Part shown: positions 2,070-28,434 of the stretch, piece by piece
Layout of the letters: every line of letters starts with the position of its first letter
How positions within the stretch are numbered: the stretch's first letter is position 1
NCBI GenBank assembly: GCA_025360815.1
Contig: JANYBL010000109.1
Span: 1-64,000 of the forward strand
Length of the DNA stretch: 64,000 nt
From: Burkholderiales bacterium
Lineage (GTDB): Bacteria; Pseudomonadota; Gammaproteobacteria; Burkholderiales; Usitatibacteraceae
Direction: 5' to 3'
Notes under the pieces: generated by a model
Database searches by the model: none
The model's input: the letters and a program-made list of their open reading frames with translations, nothing else
What the model was told of the DNA's origin: nothing
Program-made: the position numbers and the translations under genes

Positions 2070-3500
2070 ATGCAAGTCCAGTCGATGTTTTTCAAACAAA
2101 CCGCGAGCACGAAGCTCAATGACGCGGTGTTGCAGCGCGTGATGAAAAAAGCAAAGGTCAAGTTTGTTGACGGTCGCGCTGAAGGCGTTGCGCTGATCGA
2201 CAACTGGGAGGACATTCGTACCTATGCGGCTGCTATGCGTGATCGGGTAATCGCGAATTTGGACGCCTACTTGATCGAGTTTGAAAAAAACGCGATTCGC
2301 CGCGGCTCGGTTGTGCATTGGGCTGAAACGGCGGAAGAAGCAAACGCGATTATTGTTAAGATTGCCCAAGAAAATGATGTAAAGGCGGTCACCAAATCTA
2401 AATCGATGGTGAGTGAAGAAGTGGCGCTCAATGATGCACTGGAGGCGGTGGGTGTCTCGGTGCTTGAAACCGATTTAGGCGAATATATTTTGCAGCTCGC
2501 CAAAGAGCCACCGTCGCATATTGTGGCGCCCGCCGTGCATAAATCGAAAGAGCAGGTCGCGCAATTATTTGTTGATCACCATCACAGCCCGGGCACCCCG
2601 CCTCTGACCGATATTGCCGCAATGACGCGGGAAGCCCGCGAGGTTTTACGGGGACGCTTTTTATCGGCGGACATGGGCATCAGCGGTGCGAATTTTATCA
2701 TTGCCGAAACCGGTACCACGCTCACCGTCACCAATGAAGGTAATGCCGACATGGTGACCACTATTCCGCGGATTCATTGCGTGATTACCGGTATCGAGAA
2801 GGTCATCCCCACGCTGGAGGATTTTGCGACTTTGATACGGCTGCTGCCGCGCTCGGCGATTGGCCAAACGATTTCAAATTATCTGACGCTTACCACTGGC
2901 ATCAAGGCGCCCGACGAGCAAGAAGGCCCGGCGCAAATGCATATTGTGTTGGTCGACGCGGGCCGCACCAAATTAGTCGGCAGTGATATGAGCGAGATGC
3001 TGCGTTGTATCCGCTGCGGCGCATGTATGAACCATTGCCCGGTTTATCAGAACGTCGGCGGTCATGCCTATGGCTGGGTGTATCCGGGGCCGATGGGCTC
3101 GGTGCTAACGCCGGTTTACCAAGGCATCGAGAAGGGCGGCGATTTACCCAATGCGGCGACGTTTTGCGGCGAATGTCAGGTCGTTTGCCCGGTAAAAATT
3201 CCGTTGCCGGATTTGATGCGTAAATTGCGCGAGCAGCAATTCGATAAAAAATTGCGGCCGTTCAGCGAGCGTTTTGGCATTGCTGTTTGGAGTTATTTTG
3301 TGCAGCGCCCCAAATTGTATTCCCTCGCAGCGAGTGTCGGCGCCAGGTTTGCGGCATGGCTGGGCGGGCGCGGGAAGTTGATTCACAAGCTGCCCGGTAT
3401 CGATGGCTGGACCGATGGTCGCGATATGCCGGCGCCGGAAGGCCGGACGTTTCGCGAACTTTATGTCGAGAAACAGCGAATTAAAAAAGCAAATTCATGA
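2070..3500 (+). CDS. lutB: LutB-type lactate utilisation iron-sulfur protein
   Basis: A 476-residue protein of the LutB/LldF/YkgF family. Residues of about 70-300 form the LUD domain. This is followed by two cysteine clusters for 4Fe-4S centres: C313-x2-C316-x2-C319-x3-C323-P (CIRCGACMNHCP) and C366-x2-C369-x3-C373-P. In the LutABC system this subunit passes electrons during oxidation of L-lactate to pyruvate in the cytosol. The ATG at 2070 has AGGG 6 nt upstream; an ATG at 2085 is possible. The stop overlaps lutC by 4 bp, so the two are translationally coupled. The third usual partner, the CCG-domain protein LutA, is not next to it in this window. Confidence 0.93.
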   Translation: MQVQSMFFKQTASTKLNDAVLQRVMKKAKVKFVDGRAEGVALIDNWEDIRTYAAAMRDRVIANLDAYLIEFEKNAIRRGSVVHWAETAEEANAIIVKIAQENDVKAVTKSKSMVSEEVALNDALEAVGVSVLETDLGEYILQLAKEPPSHIVAPAVHKSKEQVAQLFVDHHHSPGTPPLTDIAAMTREAREVLRGRFLSADMGISGANFIIAETGTTLTVTNEGNADMVTTIPRIHCVITGIEKVIPTLEDFATLIRLLPRSAIGQTISNYLTLTTGIKAPDEQEGPAQMHIVLVDAGRTKLVGSDMSEMLRCIRCGACMNHCPVYQNVGGHAYGWVYPGPMGSVLTPVYQGIEKGGDLPNAATFCGECQVVCPVKIPLPDLMRKLREQQFDKKLRPFSERFGIAVWSYFVQRPKLYSLAASVGARFAAWLGGRGKLIHKLPGIDGWTDGRDMPAPEGRTFRELYVEKQRIKKANS

Positions 3501-22142: not shown

Positions 22143-22970
22143 CTAATGCTCGGTATTTGCCGACCGAGGTTGCGAAGGGTACGCAGCTTCTGATGGTTGA
22201 GCCGGCGGGTTTGGCTGTGCAGGTGGCGGGTTGGGTGTGCGGGGCTGATCCAGTTTTTCATCGGGTTTCGTGTCTGTCGACGCCGACCCCGACCCCGCAT
22301 ACGCCACCAACTCGACAATAATTTTTATCTCATCCCCCACCGAAGCCGACCACGCTTTCATTCCGAAATCCGAGCGTTTTACATTTAGATAAGCGTCTGC
22401 CGTACATCGGGCGCGTTTGGCCGCGTGGGCCGCCGTGCAGCCTGAGTTTTGTACCAACAGTCGCACGGGTTTGGTCACGCCAACCAGGGTGAGTGTGCCG
22501 TCAATAGCGGTTAATTTATCGGCCTCCCAAACAAAACGGGATGATTTGAATTCGATGTTGGGAAATTTCTCCACGTGAAAAAACGCGGCGCTCCGCAGCA
22601 CCTTGTTGGTGGCGGCAGAATTGACAACATTCGCACTCACTGTGGTGCTGTCGATTGTGGCTTGGATTGCGTCGTTTGCCCTGCTGGCCGCATCCGCGCG
22701 CTCGGGGTCATGATTCAATGTGCCGGTAGTGCGGTTAAATTTTCCGCGTACCGTCATGAAGCCTAAAAACAAAACTTCGAATCGCGAGCGGGTCTCAATC
22801 GGATCCAGCACGTAGAGCGGCGTTGTTATTAGCGCAGCTTGGGATGAAGGTTGCAGCAAAGGTTGGTGCTGCGACAGTGGCACTTGTGGGTATGCCGCGC
22901 CCGACAAAATAACCAAGCTGGCGCAACAAATCGCTGGAAGACCGCGGGCGATGCGCCAGCTATTCATCAT
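22143..22970 (-). CDS. YceI-family periplasmic lipocalin-like protein
   Basis: A 275-residue protein. A signal peptide (RGLPAICCASLVILSGAAYPQ) is followed by a YceI domain from about residue 45: DPIETRSRFEVLFLGFMTVRGKFNRTTG, HVEKFPNIEFKSSRF, LTLVGVTKPVRL and SDFGMKAWSASVGDEIKI. The last 50 residues are a Pro/Gln/Ser-rich tail not usual in the family. YceI proteins bind isoprenoid-like lipids in a beta-barrel. The ATG at 22970 overlaps the end of the Hsp15 gene by 11 bp; an in-frame TTG at 22997 is a weaker alternative. Its stop converges with yidB. Confidence 0.88.
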   Translation of the reverse strand: MMNSWRIARGLPAICCASLVILSGAAYPQVPLSQHQPLLQPSSQAALITTPLYVLDPIETRSRFEVLFLGFMTVRGKFNRTTGTLNHDPERADAASRANDAIQATIDSTTVSANVVNSAATNKVLRSAAFFHVEKFPNIEFKSSRFVWEADKLTAIDGTLTLVGVTKPVRLLVQNSGCTAAHAAKRARCTADAYLNVKRSDFGMKAWSASVGDEIKIIVELVAYAGSGSASTDTKPDEKLDQPRTPNPPPAQPNPPAQPSEAAYPSQPRSANTEH

Positions 22971-23394
22971 CGCGCTGACTGTGAAGGGCGCGTTCAAAAT
23001 TCTCGAGAGCCCTTCGATCGTGTTTGGTGGGCCGGCCCTTAAAAACGGGCGGCGGCAGATCGCGTTGCTCCTGCGCGAGGGCTGCGCGGGCGGCTAGACT
23101 CTCGGTTGTTTCTTCATAAAGACTGCGCGCAATGACGGCTGAGCCGCGTTTTTCAGAGATACTTTTTACCATCAGATGAAATGCAAACGGCGGCTTTCGC
23201 AATAGTAATAGATCGTGCAAGTGAATTGTTTTGGCAGGCTTGGCGCGTTCGCTGTTCACATCGACTCGGCCAGCATTGATCGCATCAATCGCCATTTGCC
23301 GAGTCTTGAAAAAGCGCGCCGCCCATAGCCATTTATCAAGCCGCGCGGTTGGTGCAGAGTCTTCATTTACATGATCCGAGTGGTGTACGTTCAT
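22960..23394 (-). CDS. hslR: Hsp15-like S4-domain RNA-binding protein
   Basis: A 144-residue basic protein with an S4 domain at its N-terminus: RLDKWLWAARFFKTRQMAIDAINAGRVDVN is almost diagnostic of Hsp15. The C-terminal half is charged and ends KHDRRALENFERAL. In E. coli Hsp15 binds stalled 50S subunits carrying nascent chains after heat shock. The ATG at 23394 is preferred over a TTG at 23412. It lies directly downstream of the proteasome-like gene and overlaps the YceI gene at its 3' end, so the three leftward genes form one tight unit. Confidence 0.9.
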   Translation of the reverse strand: MNVHHSDHVNEDSAPTARLDKWLWAARFFKTRQMAIDAINAGRVDVNSERAKPAKTIHLHDLLLLRKPPFAFHLMVKSISEKRGSAVIARSLYEETTESLAARAALAQEQRDLPPPVFKGRPTKHDRRALENFERALHSQRDDE

Positions 23395-23412
23395 CCGGCA
23401 ATCGTCCTGCAA

Positions 23413-24021
23413 TTATTTCTGGATCGTTGATTTGACGGTCGCCAATTTGACCGTCGCCATGTTCAGCGGCAAGGCCGTTCCGGTATCGTATTCAGCGCCA
23501 GCGGTCACGCCAAGTCGGGCAATCGATTCAGCTGTCTTTTGCTTGCTGGCGCCTTTTGCTTGGTCGTAGGCGGCATACATCGCGCCGAGGGCAAAATCGC
23601 GTCCGGAGCCAATCGCCCAAAAGCGATCAAACTCGAACACTTCGCGCATTGAGTACACACCGAAGATGCCGCTGGGGTTGACTACCAGTGCGGTCAATTG
23701 CGACGACTCGTACGCGTCATCGTCATCTTCTTTGGTGTTCAAAAACGCCTCATCTTTCAGCAAGGGGTGTATCTTCCGAAAGCTCTCATAAATCTCTTCG
23801 CGGCCATGAAATTTAAATTCAGGATGACGCTTCAATAAACTTTCAAGCACAAGCTGGTGCGCAGCTGAACCGGCAATGCCGAAATAGGTATCACCATGCT
23901 TCAACAATTTTTCTGGCGCAGCATCATGCGCGCTGCCCAATCGGGTCGAACCAAAGGTAGTGAGTGTGTCGCCCGCGATCACTGCCACCCCGTCTTTTTT
24001 TACCACTACGATTGTTGTCAT
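23413..24021 (-). CDS. Proteasome-like Ntn hydrolase (BPH/HslV superfamily)
   Basis: A 202-residue protein beginning M-T-T-I-V-V-V-K-K-D-G. Removal of Met exposes the catalytic Thr1. D17 is found in AGDTLTTFGS, a lysine is in APEKLLKH (position 37, four residues later than K33 of HslV), and a GSGRDFALGA motif is present near residue 140. These are active-site features of proteasome beta-type subunits. Length and sequence differ from classical HslV, which is next to hslU; no hslU is nearby here. The protein resembles the betaproteobacterial proteasome homologue called BPH, which forms double rings with no known ATPase. The next gene is the heat-shock protein Hsp15. Confidence 0.82.
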   Translation of the reverse strand: MTTIVVVKKDGVAVIAGDTLTTFGSTRLGSAHDAAPEKLLKHGDTYFGIAGSAAHQLVLESLLKRHPEFKFHGREEIYESFRKIHPLLKDEAFLNTKEDDDDAYESSQLTALVVNPSGIFGVYSMREVFEFDRFWAIGSGRDFALGAMYAAYDQAKGASKQKTAESIARLGVTAGAEYDTGTALPLNMATVKLATVKSTIQK

Positions 24022-24132
24022 GTTTGTTCCCCGATACAGTCGATTTGTTGCTATTACGTTGCTGGGTCGTTCTTTTACCGTTCTCTTACTATTCTTACCA
24101 TTCCTAAGCGTATCGTAAATTCCGCTAATCCA

Positions 24133-24594
24133 CTAACTCCGCAGCCTGTCACCAAAATTAACCAGTAATACGCCTGCAACAACCAGCACAGCGCCAATCA
24201 AGCGCGGGGTTGATAACTCGCGTTCAACCAGCCCCAAAATGCCAATACGATCGAACACGAGCGACGCCAAAATCTGCCCGGCAATCACCAAGCTGAGCAT
24301 GGTCGCTACGCCAATGCGCGGTGCAATCAAGGTAGTGCCAAAAACAAAAATTGCGCCCAATATGCCGCCCGCCAATTGCCACGGCGCGATGCTATCGAGC
24401 TTAAGTACGCTGCTCCATTTTTCACCAGACAGAACACAAATCACACCCAAAATAATAGCGCCCACCAAAAAATTCATGAACGCGGCAAACACGGCACCAC
24501 TGCCGACGGTGACGCGCAATGAGTTGTTAACCAAGGCTTGCAGGGGAATAATGCAGCCGATAAAAAATGCGAACAGCAATAACGATGAGTTCAT
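24133..24594 (-). CDS. DMT superfamily small exporter (DUF606/YdcZ type)
   Basis: A 153-residue inner-membrane protein with five hydrophobic segments, lacking a cleavable signal. The opening SLLLFAFFIGCIIPLQALVNNSLR and the central GGILGAIFVFGTTLIAPRIGVA segment identify DUF606 (YdcZ-like), a half-size branch of the drug/metabolite transporter superfamily that works as pairs. The substrate is unknown. It is on the same strand as, and 111 bp upstream of, the proteasome-like gene. Confidence 0.85.
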   Translation of the reverse strand: MNSSLLLFAFFIGCIIPLQALVNNSLRVTVGSGAVFAAFMNFLVGAIILGVICVLSGEKWSSVLKLDSIAPWQLAGGILGAIFVFGTTLIAPRIGVATMLSLVIAGQILASLVFDRIGILGLVERELSTPRLIGAVLVVAGVLLVNFGDRLRS

Positions 24595-24922: not shown

Positions 24923-26563
24923 ATGAAAATTGCATATATTACCTATCGCCGCGCCGTCGATTCCATGCGCGTTCGCAGCACACTAGCCGTTATCGCCGCC
25001 AGTTTTGCGTGTGTAGCCTGCGCCGCGTCGTCGGTTTTTGCCTCTACTGAGCTACCAGCGAAAAGCTTTCGCTGGTCAAGCCGGTCCGATGTTTTTTCAA
25101 TGGACCCACACTCGACGAACAACGGCTTCAATAATACTATTTCGTCCTATGTCTACGAGCCGCTCGTCATACGCGGCAAGACCATGGCGATTGAGGGGGC
25201 GCTGGCTGTTTCTTGGTTACCCGTCGACGCGACCACGATGCGCTTCAAGCTGCGCGACAAAGTAAAATTCCATGATGGCGCGGCATTCAGCGCCGACGAT
25301 GTGGTGTTCTCGATTACGCGAGCGTTGGAGAAAACCTCGGATTTTTCTGAATACATGCAAGGCATTAGAGGCGCAAAGAAAATTGACGCGTTGACGGTTG
25401 ATATTGTCAGCGATGTCCAAAATCCAACGCTGCTTGATCAATTGACTGAAATTAGAATCATGAACAAAGCATGGGCGCAAAATCATAAGGTGTTGCGGCC
25501 ACAAGACTATAAAAACGGTGAGGAAACTTACACTGCCCGCAACGCCAACGGCACGGGACCGTTTATTCTCAAATCACGCGAGCCGGATGTGAAGACGGTG
25601 ATGATAGTGAATCCAAATTGGTGGAGCAAAATTGATGGCGCGATTACGGAGGTTATTTATCGTCCTATTAAATCCGATGCGACCCGCGTGGCAGCGCTCA
25701 TCACGGGCGAGCTTGATTTAGTGCTCGATCCGCCGGTGCAGGATTTGGCGAAGCTGAAAGAAAATAGAGACATTAAAATATTGGAAGGTAACGAAAATCG
25801 CACTATTTTCCTCAACTTCGACCAGAGTCGTGAGGAGCTGCTCTATGGGAGCAAAGGCAAAAACCCGTTTAAAGATATTCGTGTTCGCCAAGCGATGCTG
25901 CTGGCGATTGATGTAAATGCCATTCATAAAACCGTGATGCGCGGCTTGTCGCTGCCCACCATGTCGATGATCGCGCCGCAGGTGCGGGGATACACAAAAG
26001 ATGTTGAAAAACGTCCCGCTGTGGATTTAGTGAGAGCTAAGAAGCTTATGGCGGAAGCGGGGTTGGCGAATGGCTTTGAGGTGACCTTTGATTGTCCGAA
26101 TGACCGCTACATCAATGATATTCAAATTTGTAGCGCGATTGCAGCTATGCTGGCCAAAATTGATATCCGGGTTAGGCTCAATGCCATGCCTGCCACTCTA
26201 TTTCTGCCCAAAATTCAAAAGAGTGACACGAGCCTATATTTGCTTGGTTGGGGCGTGCCGACCTTTGATTCGCTTAATCCCTTGCAGGCTTTGCTGCGCA
26301 CCAAAACTAAGGGCACCGATGGCAATTTCAATTTTTCTGGCTACTCGAATGCTAAAGTTGATGCGTTGGTTGAAAAGCTCAAAACGGAAACTGATTTCAA
26401 AAAACGCGCGGACTTAACCCGGGAAGCCTTGCTCATCGACCAGGCCGATGTTGGACATATTCCGCTGCATCATCAAGTGATTCCGTGGGCGATGCGAAAG
26501 AATGTCACCGTGGTGCACCGATCGGACAACGGAATGTGGGCGAGGTGGGCGGTTATCAACTAA
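24923..26563 (+). CDS. Dipeptide-type ABC transporter substrate-binding protein 1
   Basis: A 546-residue SBP_bac_5 protein. The signal peptide (LAVIAASFACVACAASSVFA) is preceded by a long basic n-region. The mature protein has SFRWSSRSDVFSMDPHSTNN, VKFHDGAAFSADDVVFS and NANGTGPFILKSREPDVKT. It is closer to the orphan protein at 12.1-13.7 kb (shared CPNDRYIND) than to its direct neighbour. The ATG at 24923 has GGGAG about 8 nt upstream; the ATG at 24965 would give a shorter signal. It precedes a second binding protein and dppBCDF, so it likely feeds peptides, or another oligomeric ligand, to that permease. Confidence 0.93.
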   Translation: MKIAYITYRRAVDSMRVRSTLAVIAASFACVACAASSVFASTELPAKSFRWSSRSDVFSMDPHSTNNGFNNTISSYVYEPLVIRGKTMAIEGALAVSWLPVDATTMRFKLRDKVKFHDGAAFSADDVVFSITRALEKTSDFSEYMQGIRGAKKIDALTVDIVSDVQNPTLLDQLTEIRIMNKAWAQNHKVLRPQDYKNGEETYTARNANGTGPFILKSREPDVKTVMIVNPNWWSKIDGAITEVIYRPIKSDATRVAALITGELDLVLDPPVQDLAKLKENRDIKILEGNENRTIFLNFDQSREELLYGSKGKNPFKDIRVRQAMLLAIDVNAIHKTVMRGLSLPTMSMIAPQVRGYTKDVEKRPAVDLVRAKKLMAEAGLANGFEVTFDCPNDRYINDIQICSAIAAMLAKIDIRVRLNAMPATLFLPKIQKSDTSLYLLGWGVPTFDSLNPLQALLRTKTKGTDGNFNFSGYSNAKVDALVEKLKTETDFKKRADLTREALLIDQADVGHIPLHHQVIPWAMRKNVTVVHRSDNGMWARWAVIN

Positions 26564-26823
26564 TTTGTCCTACCGATGGTATCGAGCCGATGGTTGATAG
26601 GTCCGTTGTTTACCGGTGTATCGCCAGCCTATAATTGAGATTGTATCTTTACCGAAGGCTAGGCCTCGCGATGACAAACCAGCTTCGCTGCCTTTACAAT
26701 TTGCCGCCTTATGCGATGCCTGTTCCGCGATGGTACGCTTCCGGATTGTGCAAACTCAGTTGCTAATCGTGCTATGCCCGTTGGTGCGATGTCTTTTTTT
26801 GCTTTTTTTGGGATGATGTGGCC

Positions 26824-28434
26824 ATGATGAATTTTGTCTTTAAATTTCACCCGCGCGCGGTTTTCGCCTCGCTGATTGCTTGCCTATGTTCAGCGATGCT
26901 ATGCACGGCGGTGTCTGCCAACACACTTCGTTACGCCAGCCAAGACGATCCTCAGACCCTTGACCCACATGCGGCCAACTTGTTGCCAACGACCCGTGTC
27001 ATTGCTCAGATTTATGAATCCTTGGTTGCGCGGGATCAACAGTTTAAAATTGTTCCCGGTTTGGCGTTGTGGTGGAGCAATCCCGATAGCAAAACATGGC
27101 GCTTTAAGCTGCGCCCCAATGTGAAGTTTCATGACGGATCGCCGTTTACGGCCGATGATGTGGTGTTTTCGGTAGAGCGTGCGCTCCACCCGCAATCCCA
27201 GCTGAAAGCATCGTTGGTCGGGGTCGCGACCGCTAAAAAAATTGATGATTTCACAGTCGATTTAATTATGAAAGACCCAAACCCAATTCTGATTAACAAT
27301 CTATTTCTGTTTCGCGTGATGTCAAAAATATGGGCGACTAAAAATGGCGCATTGGCTCCGCAAAACTATAAGGCGAGTGAAGACACTTTTGCTTCGCGCA
27401 ATGCCAACGGTACCGGCCCGTTCATGGTTAAGTTGCGCCAGCCGGATGTCAAAACTGTGTTGGTCGCCAATCCTAACTGGTGGAATATTGCCAGCACCGA
27501 AAAAGGCAATATTACGCAGGTAGAAATGTTGCCCATCAAATCAAACGCAACCCGCGTTGCGGCTTTACTCTCGGGCGAGGTTGATTTTGTTTTGGATCCG
27601 CCGCAGCAAGATGTCGCGCGGCTAAAAAAAGAGGCCAACATTCGCGTCTCGGAGGGTAGCGATGCGCGCATTCAATATTTCGCGTTCGATCAATTTCGCG
27701 ACGAATTGTTGTACAGCAGCGTAAAAGGTAAGAACCCGTTCAAAGATTTACGCGTCCGCCAAGCAGTAGCACATGCGATTGATGCCAGTGCCATACGCCA
27801 AGTAGTCATGCGCGGTCTGTCGATCCCGACCGGCAGCTTAGTGCCGGAAGGCACACAAGGCTACACCAAGGATGTCGAGAAACGCCTTCCAGTTGATCGC
27901 GAAAAAGCCAAGGCATTGCTGACCGAAGCGGGCTATCCGACAGGGTTTTCAGTCACGCTGGACTGCGGCATTAACCAGCCCGCTGCCGATATCTGCCAGG
28001 CAGCAGCATCCATGCTGTCGCAAGTTGGCATCCGCACGACGCCCAATATCGTGCCACTTGCCAATTATTTCCAAAAACTACAGCGCTTCGACACGAGCTT
28101 TTATTTGTTGAGCTGGGGAACCAGCACATTCGACGCACTCGATACCTTGCAGGCCGTGCTTGAGAAAAATAGAGGCGAACAAACGACCGGTGGCGATTCC
28201 AACTATGGCCGCTACTCCAACCCCAAAATGGATGACATTATCGGCAAAATCAAAGTTGAAATGGATATGAAAAAACGCAATCTGTTGATCCATGATGCGC
28301 TGGTTCTGAACCAAACTGATATTGCAACCTTGCCGTTGCATCAGCCTGTGATACCGTGGGCAATGCGCAAGAATGTGACAGCGGTTTTTACGCCCAATAA
28401 TGTGCCTTATTTTTTCCGCTTTAAAATGAATTAG
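26824..28434 (+). CDS. Dipeptide-type ABC transporter substrate-binding protein 2
   Basis: A 536-residue SBP_bac_5 protein with a signal peptide ending near AVSA and a mature start NTLRYASQDDPQTLDPHAAN. It has VKFHDGSPFTADDVVFS and NANGTGPFMVKLRQPDVKT, in line with the two paralogues, but the later CPNDRYIND segment is replaced by CGINQPAAD, which suggests a different ligand. A GTG at 26818 is in frame two codons upstream. It is 71 bp upstream of dppB and is the likely dedicated binding protein for that permease. The 260-bp gap before it holds no gene. Confidence 0.93.
   Translation: MMNFVFKFHPRAVFASLIACLCSAMLCTAVSANTLRYASQDDPQTLDPHAANLLPTTRVIAQIYESLVARDQQFKIVPGLALWWSNPDSKTWRFKLRPNVKFHDGSPFTADDVVFSVERALHPQSQLKASLVGVATAKKIDDFTVDLIMKDPNPILINNLFLFRVMSKIWATKNGALAPQNYKASEDTFASRNANGTGPFMVKLRQPDVKTVLVANPNWWNIASTEKGNITQVEMLPIKSNATRVAALLSGEVDFVLDPPQQDVARLKKEANIRVSEGSDARIQYFAFDQFRDELLYSSVKGKNPFKDLRVRQAVAHAIDASAIRQVVMRGLSIPTGSLVPEGTQGYTKDVEKRLPVDREKAKALLTEAGYPTGFSVTLDCGINQPAADICQAAASMLSQVGIRTTPNIVPLANYFQKLQRFDTSFYLLSWGTSTFDALDTLQAVLEKNRGEQTTGGDSNYGRYSNPKMDDIIGKIKVEMDMKKRNLLIHDALVLNQTDIATLPLHQPVIPWAMRKNVTAVFTPNNVPYFFRFKMN

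Follow-up and report, generated by a model that had tools for sequence, protein, structure and literature searches.

Gene content of the locus

The window, by which we mean the whole stretch of 64,000 nucleotides that was analysed (contig JANYBL010000109.1 of a Burkholderiales bacterium of the family Usitatibacteraceae), contains on its minus strand an open reading frame of 202 codons (23413–24021, ATG start, TAA stop) that almost certainly encodes a member of the Betaproteobacteria proteasome homologue (BPH) family. The plus strand opposite this frame is interrupted by stops. It is followed on the same strand by hslR (22960–23412, minus strand), which, read from the TTG at 23412, encodes 150 residues with an S4 domain (PF01479, 37.7 bits), probably the ribosome-associated heat shock protein Hsp15. 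Two starts are candidates for hslR: a TTG at 23412, the base right after the BPH stop, and an ATG 18 bases further on. The third gene of this leftward unit encodes a YceI-family protein (22143–22997, minus strand; PF04264, 106 bits) and, as called, shares 38 bases with the end of hslR. Upstream of the BPH gene lies an intergenic stretch (24022–24132, minus strand), which would hold the promoter of the unit, if there is one, followed by a gene for a YdcZ-family transporter (24133–24594, minus strand; PF04657, 118 bits) that is probably not part of the unit. The genes near BPH are thus hslR, yceI and a ydcZ-type gene, with no AAA+ unfoldase gene among them. The first-pass annotation had described a tight leftward unit with hslR; the hslR start does adjoin the BPH stop, and the two genes are very probably co-transcribed. 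Further upstream, on the plus strand, two adjacent genes (24923–26563 and 26818–28434) encode similar proteins that, by eye, resemble peptide-binding components of transporters and seem to have arisen by tandem duplication.

The hslR product is the sole Hsp15 match in the genome. It scores 97.2 bits with the Hsp15 model NF007673, against a cut-off of 148 that is exceeded in only one of the 77 genomes searched. RqcP was considered as an alternative identity. The accessible text of PMC11317155 characterises RqcP by the motif K14-R15-R16, a length of no more than 110 residues between Arg2 and the carboxy-terminus, and the presence of RqcH in the genome. Inspection of the hslR product shows R24-L25-D26, then K36-T37-R38, and 126 residues to the end, and RqcH has no match in this genome; by the criteria given in that text the protein is Hsp15 and not RqcP. 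The sole hslO gene of the genome, encoding Hsp33, is located on another contig (C85), beside glmU-like and ATP-synthase epsilon genes.

Active site and pore loop

Counted from Met1, the BPH protein contains Thr2, Asp18, Lys38, Gly51 and a GSG motif at residues 138–140, so that the Thr1/Asp17/Lys/GSG pattern reported in the first-pass annotation is present. Thr2, Asp18, Lys38, Gly51 and Ser139 correspond to Thr1, Asp17, Lys37, Gly50 and Ser of BPH as numbered in PMC5777263, a paper that we cite throughout from its accessible parts. The amino-terminus is Met-Thr, without a propeptide, and the Thr2 codon (24016–24018, minus strand) would, judging from the sequence and an alignment of 224 BPH rows, encode the mature amino-terminal nucleophile, Thr1 once the methionine is removed. 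Removal of this methionine has been demonstrated for the Cupriavidus metallidurans protein, Cm-BPH (PMC5777263). Lys38, Gly51, Gly138 and Gly140 are invariant across the 224 rows. The column of Asp18 contains 222 Asp and two Glu, that of Ser139 contains 199 Ser, seven Thr and 18 Ala, and the nucleophile is Thr in 190 rows and Ser in 34.

Residues 95–108, NTKEDDDDAYESSQ (23698–23739, minus strand), form the acidic pore loop, as assigned from the net acidity count and the structural model. Its net acidity (Asp plus Glu minus Lys plus Arg) is 5, which equals the median of the 224 rows, and NTKEDDDDAYESSQ, as judged from its residues, carries the acidic run that marks BPH. The least acidic loop in the alignment, with a net value of -1, belongs to the L281 copy. 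This copy comes from one of two genomes with two BPH copies each, G504 (L285) and G542 (L281, on contig C121 of G542); one copy per genome was examined.

Structure prediction and family assignment

In phmmer searches of solved structures, the best matches are PDB entries 5ovu (192 bits, E = 8.2e-56) and 5ovs (127 bits, E = 8.6e-36), the BPHs of C. metallidurans and T. denitrificans, respectively, while the best HslV structure reaches 27.6 bits (E = 2e-5). Pfam reports the superfamily PF00227 alone, at 25.1 bits, and the scores with the two NCBIfam HslV models, 33.6 and 32.9 bits, are far under the respective cut-offs, 137 and 157.75. An AlphaFold model of the monomer, built with 27 sequences, has a mean pLDDT of 82.5 and a pTM of 0.82; its least confident internal segment comprises residues 100–106, inside the pore loop. 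Foldseek places this model closest to 5ovu, 5ovs and 5ovt, with TM-scores of 0.80–0.83 normalised to the query length, ahead of HslV, and the first six matches are all BPHs. The protein is a routine addition to an already known family.

The genome (3.74 Mb, 99.99% complete) contains three PF00227 genes, so that HslV, BPH and an Anbu-like protein occur together in one genome. The HslV gene is located on contig C47 (292 and 272 bits to the HslV models), directly beside hslU (665 bits). The third gene (244 amino acids, contig C38, locus L003) is presumed to be Anbu-like from its length, its neighbours and the usual make-up of Anbu operons, rather than from a family model; the 318-amino acid gene ahead of it resembles the alpha-E partner usual for Anbu. 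Between BPH and this protein only a 13-residue match is found, at chance level (E = 0.78), and an Anbu identity for the BPH frame was discarded. The first-pass annotation had listed the protein as BPH-like and without HslU. The latter holds for the neighbourhood and fails for the genome as a whole.

A tree of 24 BPHs and 18 HslVs separates the groups by a single branch with an SH-aLRT support of 100. Forcing the BPH of the window among the HslVs of its family lowers the log-likelihood by 289 (p-AU 2.3e-8), and this test, together with HslV scores under the cut-offs, excludes an HslV identity at the level of the sequence. A topology that groups all HslVs and the BPH of the window against the other BPHs is not rejected (p-AU 0.66); this comparison bears only on the position of the root within BPH, which it does not fix. 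A place inside canonical HslV, in a genome with an hslU partner elsewhere and no other hslV, would have contradicted the first-pass assignment; instead, the nesting was rejected and a separate hslV with its hslU, plus the Anbu-like gene, was found elsewhere in the genome. The profile search, the HslV models, the structural comparison and the nesting test all agree with the BPH assignment.

Conservation of the gene order

Within the family of the window, BPH was found in 23 of the 25 genomes searched, and in 22 of these 23 hslR is the next gene downstream on the same strand, which is far above chance; the exception is G382, where 2.4 kb lie between the two. The two family genomes without BPH are G385, which is complete, and G370, where just 47 bases separate hslR from a contig end and the assembly may have lost BPH. 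The BPH-hslR order is kept across BPH identities of 58–100%. Most loci from the genus of the window have a yceI gene close to hslR, and those from the rest of the family do not. Among 30 BPH-hslR loci inspected, several show ATGA-type overlaps with the ATG at -3 (L098, L114, L124 and L136), and none contains a BPH-Hsp15 gene fusion; apparent long hslR frames in some of them are open read-through frames in G+C-rich DNA.

The gene contexts of BPH given in the accessible parts of PMC5777263 are argG, pyruvate dehydrogenase (PDC) and Hsp33. For the wider comparison, contexts were assigned by searching the six reading frames with profiles, with labels that depend on the distance limits chosen. The order sample (115 loci plus the window), the close relatives and the 80 named loci share genomes and are never summed. 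In evenly drawn Burkholderiales, BPH is present in 116 of 300 genomes, with argG as context in 40, hslO in 38, PDC in 11, hslR in ten, hslO plus hslR in six and another context in 11. One or both of the chaperone genes thus adjoin BPH in 54 of the 116, hslR in 16. The best 80 of 545 named loci, a selection biased toward close relatives, comprise hslR alone (29), PDC (15), hslO alone (8), hslO plus hslR (7), a paiB-like gene plus hslR (6), hslR 2.4 kb away (1) and other contexts (14). Some loci labelled "other", G454 and G557 among them, lie near contig ends, and L135 carries this label although tblastn shows an hslR-like stretch 48 bases downstream.

Seven of the named loci contain both hslO and hslR and are intermediates between the two arrangements: five have the order BPH-hslO-paiB-like-hslR (L095, L101, L117, L119 and L128) and two have BPH-hslO-hslR (L130 and L138). 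Others have BPH-paiB-like-hslR (L112, L113, L118, L132, L133 and L142), BPH-hslO-paiB-like (L145) or BPH-paiB-like with neither chaperone gene (L094, L100, L105, L123 and L137). Related lineages have retained the full set, a part of it or a single gene, and the order is constant. The middle gene encodes a PF04299 FMN-binding domain (174–176 bits), located between BPH or hslO and hslR at 3349–3990 of L112, 5570–6211 of L118, 4851–5498 of L119, 6551–7195 of L128 and 5564–6196 of L132; the name paiB-like follows that Pfam family. Both arrangements occur within one family (f219), in which six genomes have BPH-hslO-hslR and G640 has BPH-hslR and no hslO match anywhere. Taken together, these arrangements suggest that the Hsp33 context and the Hsp15 context both belong to a single locus, BPH-hslO-paiB-like-hslR. 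The adjacency to hslR highlighted in the first-pass annotation is thus borne out, not as an isolated pairing, but as part of a larger neighbourhood that includes the published Hsp33 context.

Adjacent hslO and hslR genes also occur in genomes without a BPH match (G413, G423 and G597, among the matches listed), so the chaperone pair predates BPH or is independent of it. Using complete lists of positive genomes, hslR is present in 101 of 116 BPH-bearing genomes (no match at E = 1e-10 in the other 15) versus 114 of 184 BPH-free genomes; the Fisher tests on such counts ignore kinship, and the co-occurrence may mirror genome size. No link between BPH and Hsp15 was found in the literature searched, although the context figure of PMC5777263 (Figure 1C) or an earlier survey (PMC3235984) may show or name hslR. 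The accessible parts of PMC5777263 contain neither the unified locus nor the riboflavin context described below.

Distribution over the BPH tree

A FastTree phylogeny of 224 BPHs was calculated, leaving out L132 (147 amino acids); it has many weak forks, and changes of context were counted on it unrooted. The labels change 21 times in all, compared with about 140 times when shuffled: twice for argG, four times for hslO, six for hslR and five for hslO plus hslR, while PDC forms one clade of 26 rows. The BPH of the window falls into a set of 31 rows: 29 have BPH-hslR, one has hslR at a greater distance, and the first branch of the set (L088, Sulfuricella) has BPH-hslO. A second set of 37 rows mixes hslO plus hslR, paiB-like plus hslR, hslR and hslO. 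Most simply, an ancestral BPH gene would have stood ahead of an hslO-(paiB-like)-hslR group, of which lineages then lost or moved members, with gain and loss inseparable on unrooted counts.

BPH is not confined to betaproteobacteria, to which the first-pass annotation had largely limited it: in a sample of 369 genomes of the class, four of which are from the order of the window, 31 genomes of another order match at 160 bits or more, compared with the 116 of 300 in the order itself. The accessible text of PMC5777263 already states that the family extends beyond betaproteobacteria. In Gammaproteobacteria outside Burkholderiales, BPHs with Ser-1 are located in the arrangement nrdR-ribD-BPH-ribE-ribBA (L012–L040, for instance L012:1–3583, and L147). 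For the best 29 of the 45 positive non-window genomes in the class sample, tblastn finds ribE downstream on the same strand within 300 bases in 27 and ribD upstream within 300 bases in 26, and the nucleophile is Ser in all 29. Five more BPHs outside this set have Ser-1, two in the argG context and three in other contexts, and at least one of them (L068/L244, G403) falls within Burkholderiales. None of the literature matches listed shows a link between BPH and riboflavin. The PaiB-like FMN-binding gene is, beside this riboflavin context, a second flavin gene near BPH.

The upstream region

The 24022–24132 stretch contains no sigma-70-like site and no sigma-32-like site at the threshold used (11 of 13). 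The sigma-32 scan covered five context groups, with single-base shuffles as reference and loci with fewer than 150 bases upstream skipped. None of the 20 upstream regions in the clade of the window reaches the threshold (0.03 expected from shuffles), nor does any of the 13 with hslO plus hslR, the 11 with PDC or the 40 with argG. In the hslO clade two of 38 do (0.23 expected), both of them close relatives. The test is weak, because the E. coli hslR and yrfG controls themselves score just 8 and 10, while the E. coli hslV control scores 12. A purine-rich near-repeat, GGTAAGAATAGTAAGAGAACGGTAAAAGAACG (read toward BPH), and the word TACGCTT, common to L072 and L073, are also present in this stretch.

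Possible function

According to the accessible parts of PMC5777263, BPH is an open-ended tetradecamer that does not need a propeptide and whose exposed Thr1 covalently binds epoxomicin; standard peptides and casein revealed no detectable activity, no ATPase is known for it, and a pull-down with the C. metallidurans protein recovered no partner. Hsp15, for its part, acts on stalled 50S subunits, where it stabilises peptidyl-tRNA (PMC11317155, accessible text). The explanation we favour, and consider reasonably probable, is that BPH is an amino-terminal-threonine, self-compartmentalising peptidase made together with Hsp15, which would act without an ATPase on unfolded or unfinished chains, and that the unit in the window is a reduced form of the BPH-hslO(Hsp33)-paiB-like-hslR(Hsp15) locus. 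The protein is expected to assemble into a heptameric double ring, free of an unfoldase and with an acidic entrance. Such substrates, in no need of unfolding, could be aborted nascent chains or those that Hsp33 holds, and the acidic entrance may favour basic ones. In this mechanism, which we think most likely, BPH would work in the situations to which Hsp15 and Hsp33 respond, the former at 50S subunits blocked by peptidyl-tRNA and the latter as a redox/heat holdase.

A functional link of BPH to Hsp15 and Hsp33 is itself tentative, if well within possibility, and so is the association with stalled chains or heat stress proposed in the first-pass annotation. No chaperone link can be general, since argG or PDC stands beside BPH in 51 of the 116 Burkholderiales genomes, and, RqcH being absent, no alanine-tailing pathway could feed BPH here. 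Also counting against the favoured explanation are the lack of sigma-32-like sites (by a weak test) and of a sigma-70-like site upstream, the 15 BPH-bearing genomes with no hslR match, and the inertness of BPH on standard substrates and the empty pull-down in C. metallidurans (PMC5777263). A much more speculative extension, which we think rather unlikely, would join BPH, Hsp33, the PaiB-like flavin-binding protein and Hsp15 in one ATP-independent clearance route, shrunk to BPH and Hsp15 in the lineage of the window. In such a route, Hsp15 would free 50S subunits blocked by peptidyl-tRNA, and Hsp33 would prevent the chain, once released or oxidised, from folding; the acidic barrel of BPH, with a preference for basic chains, would then degrade it without an unfoldase. 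If this were true, BPH would have seemed inert because the tests lacked chaperone-held substrates and were done in C. metallidurans, whose BPH gene left this locus.

The gene order may also be a matter of history, and we regard this as a serious contender: BPH would be an independent stress or housekeeping peptidase that came to lie beside hslO-hslR by chance, was kept there by tight spacing in streamlined genomes and has no link to Hsp15. The four main settings of BPH (argG, PDC, hslO/hslR and, in other Gammaproteobacteria, ribD-ribE) are indeed unrelated, contexts follow the BPH tree in blocks and, among the matches listed, hslO and hslR adjoin each other without BPH. However, where the tree has hslO/hslR contexts, the gene that follows BPH switches repeatedly, nearly always among the same three genes, and BPH-hslR persists across the wide range of BPH identities given above while yceI does not. 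It is improbable that BPH is a catalytically idle remnant. Peptidase activity has so far been seen for no BPH in the accessible parts of PMC5777263, but the same source reports the binding of epoxomicin to Thr1, and active-site residues kept in nearly all 224 rows over a wide divergence are unlike a remnant. That the protein is a divergent HslV, either left without its HslU partner or working with the HslU from the other contig, is extremely improbable. Weak matches to PF00227 and to the HslV models, an hslU gene on C47 and the derivation of BPH from HslV given in PMC5777263 (accessible text) speak for it. With about 33 bits to the HslV model, compared with 292 for the HslV of the same genome, and with a separate hslVU pair, this reading is refuted as far as the sequence goes; the nesting was rejected and, from the accessible parts of PMC5777263, HslU-contact residues are not conserved in BPH and no HslU was pulled down.

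With solved structures and a working active site, but without a known substrate or function, BPH is left with its gene neighbourhood as the main clue, and the published clues (argG, PDC and Hsp33) look unrelated. To view Hsp33 and Hsp15 as what different lineages retain of a single BPH-chaperone locus makes the question narrower and points to the lineages suited to trials with substrates that are held by chaperones or released from ribosomes. If the link is real, BPH would be a bacterial, uncapped proteasome-like barrel served by ATP-independent chaperones.

Comparison with known systems

HslV of the HslVU system shares the proteasome beta-like fold and the amino-terminal threonine with the BPH of the window, but the two are only 25–31% identical, over partial stretches, and the HslV gene is separate, beside hslU. 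Unlike BPH, HslV does not have the long acidic pore loop (PMC5777263, accessible text). Like the hslR product of the window, Hsp15 of E. coli has an S4 domain. In E. coli, 24 bases separate hslR from hslO, the two chaperone genes that also accompany BPH; there, however, the order is hslR-hslO and BPH is lacking, while the betaproteobacterial order is hslO-hslR.

In structural alignments over the whole chain, the protein is 49% identical to the BPH of Cupriavidus metallidurans (5ovu) and 38% identical to that of Thiobacillus denitrificans (5ovs, 5ovt). With 5ovu and 5ovs it shares the active-site residues, the acidic pore loop, the Thr-1 type and the lack of a nearby unfoldase gene. The contexts differ: the 5ovu gene is found with pyruvate dehydrogenase and the 5ovs gene with argG (PMC5777263, accessible text), whereas that of the window is found with hslR and a YceI gene. 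The BPH-Hsp33 operons described in the accessible parts of PMC5777263, for example that of Laribacter hongkongensis, belong to the same part of the BPH family and, like the window, have a heat-shock gene after BPH on the same strand. In those operons the downstream gene is hslO, encoding Hsp33, and in the window it is hslR, encoding Hsp15.
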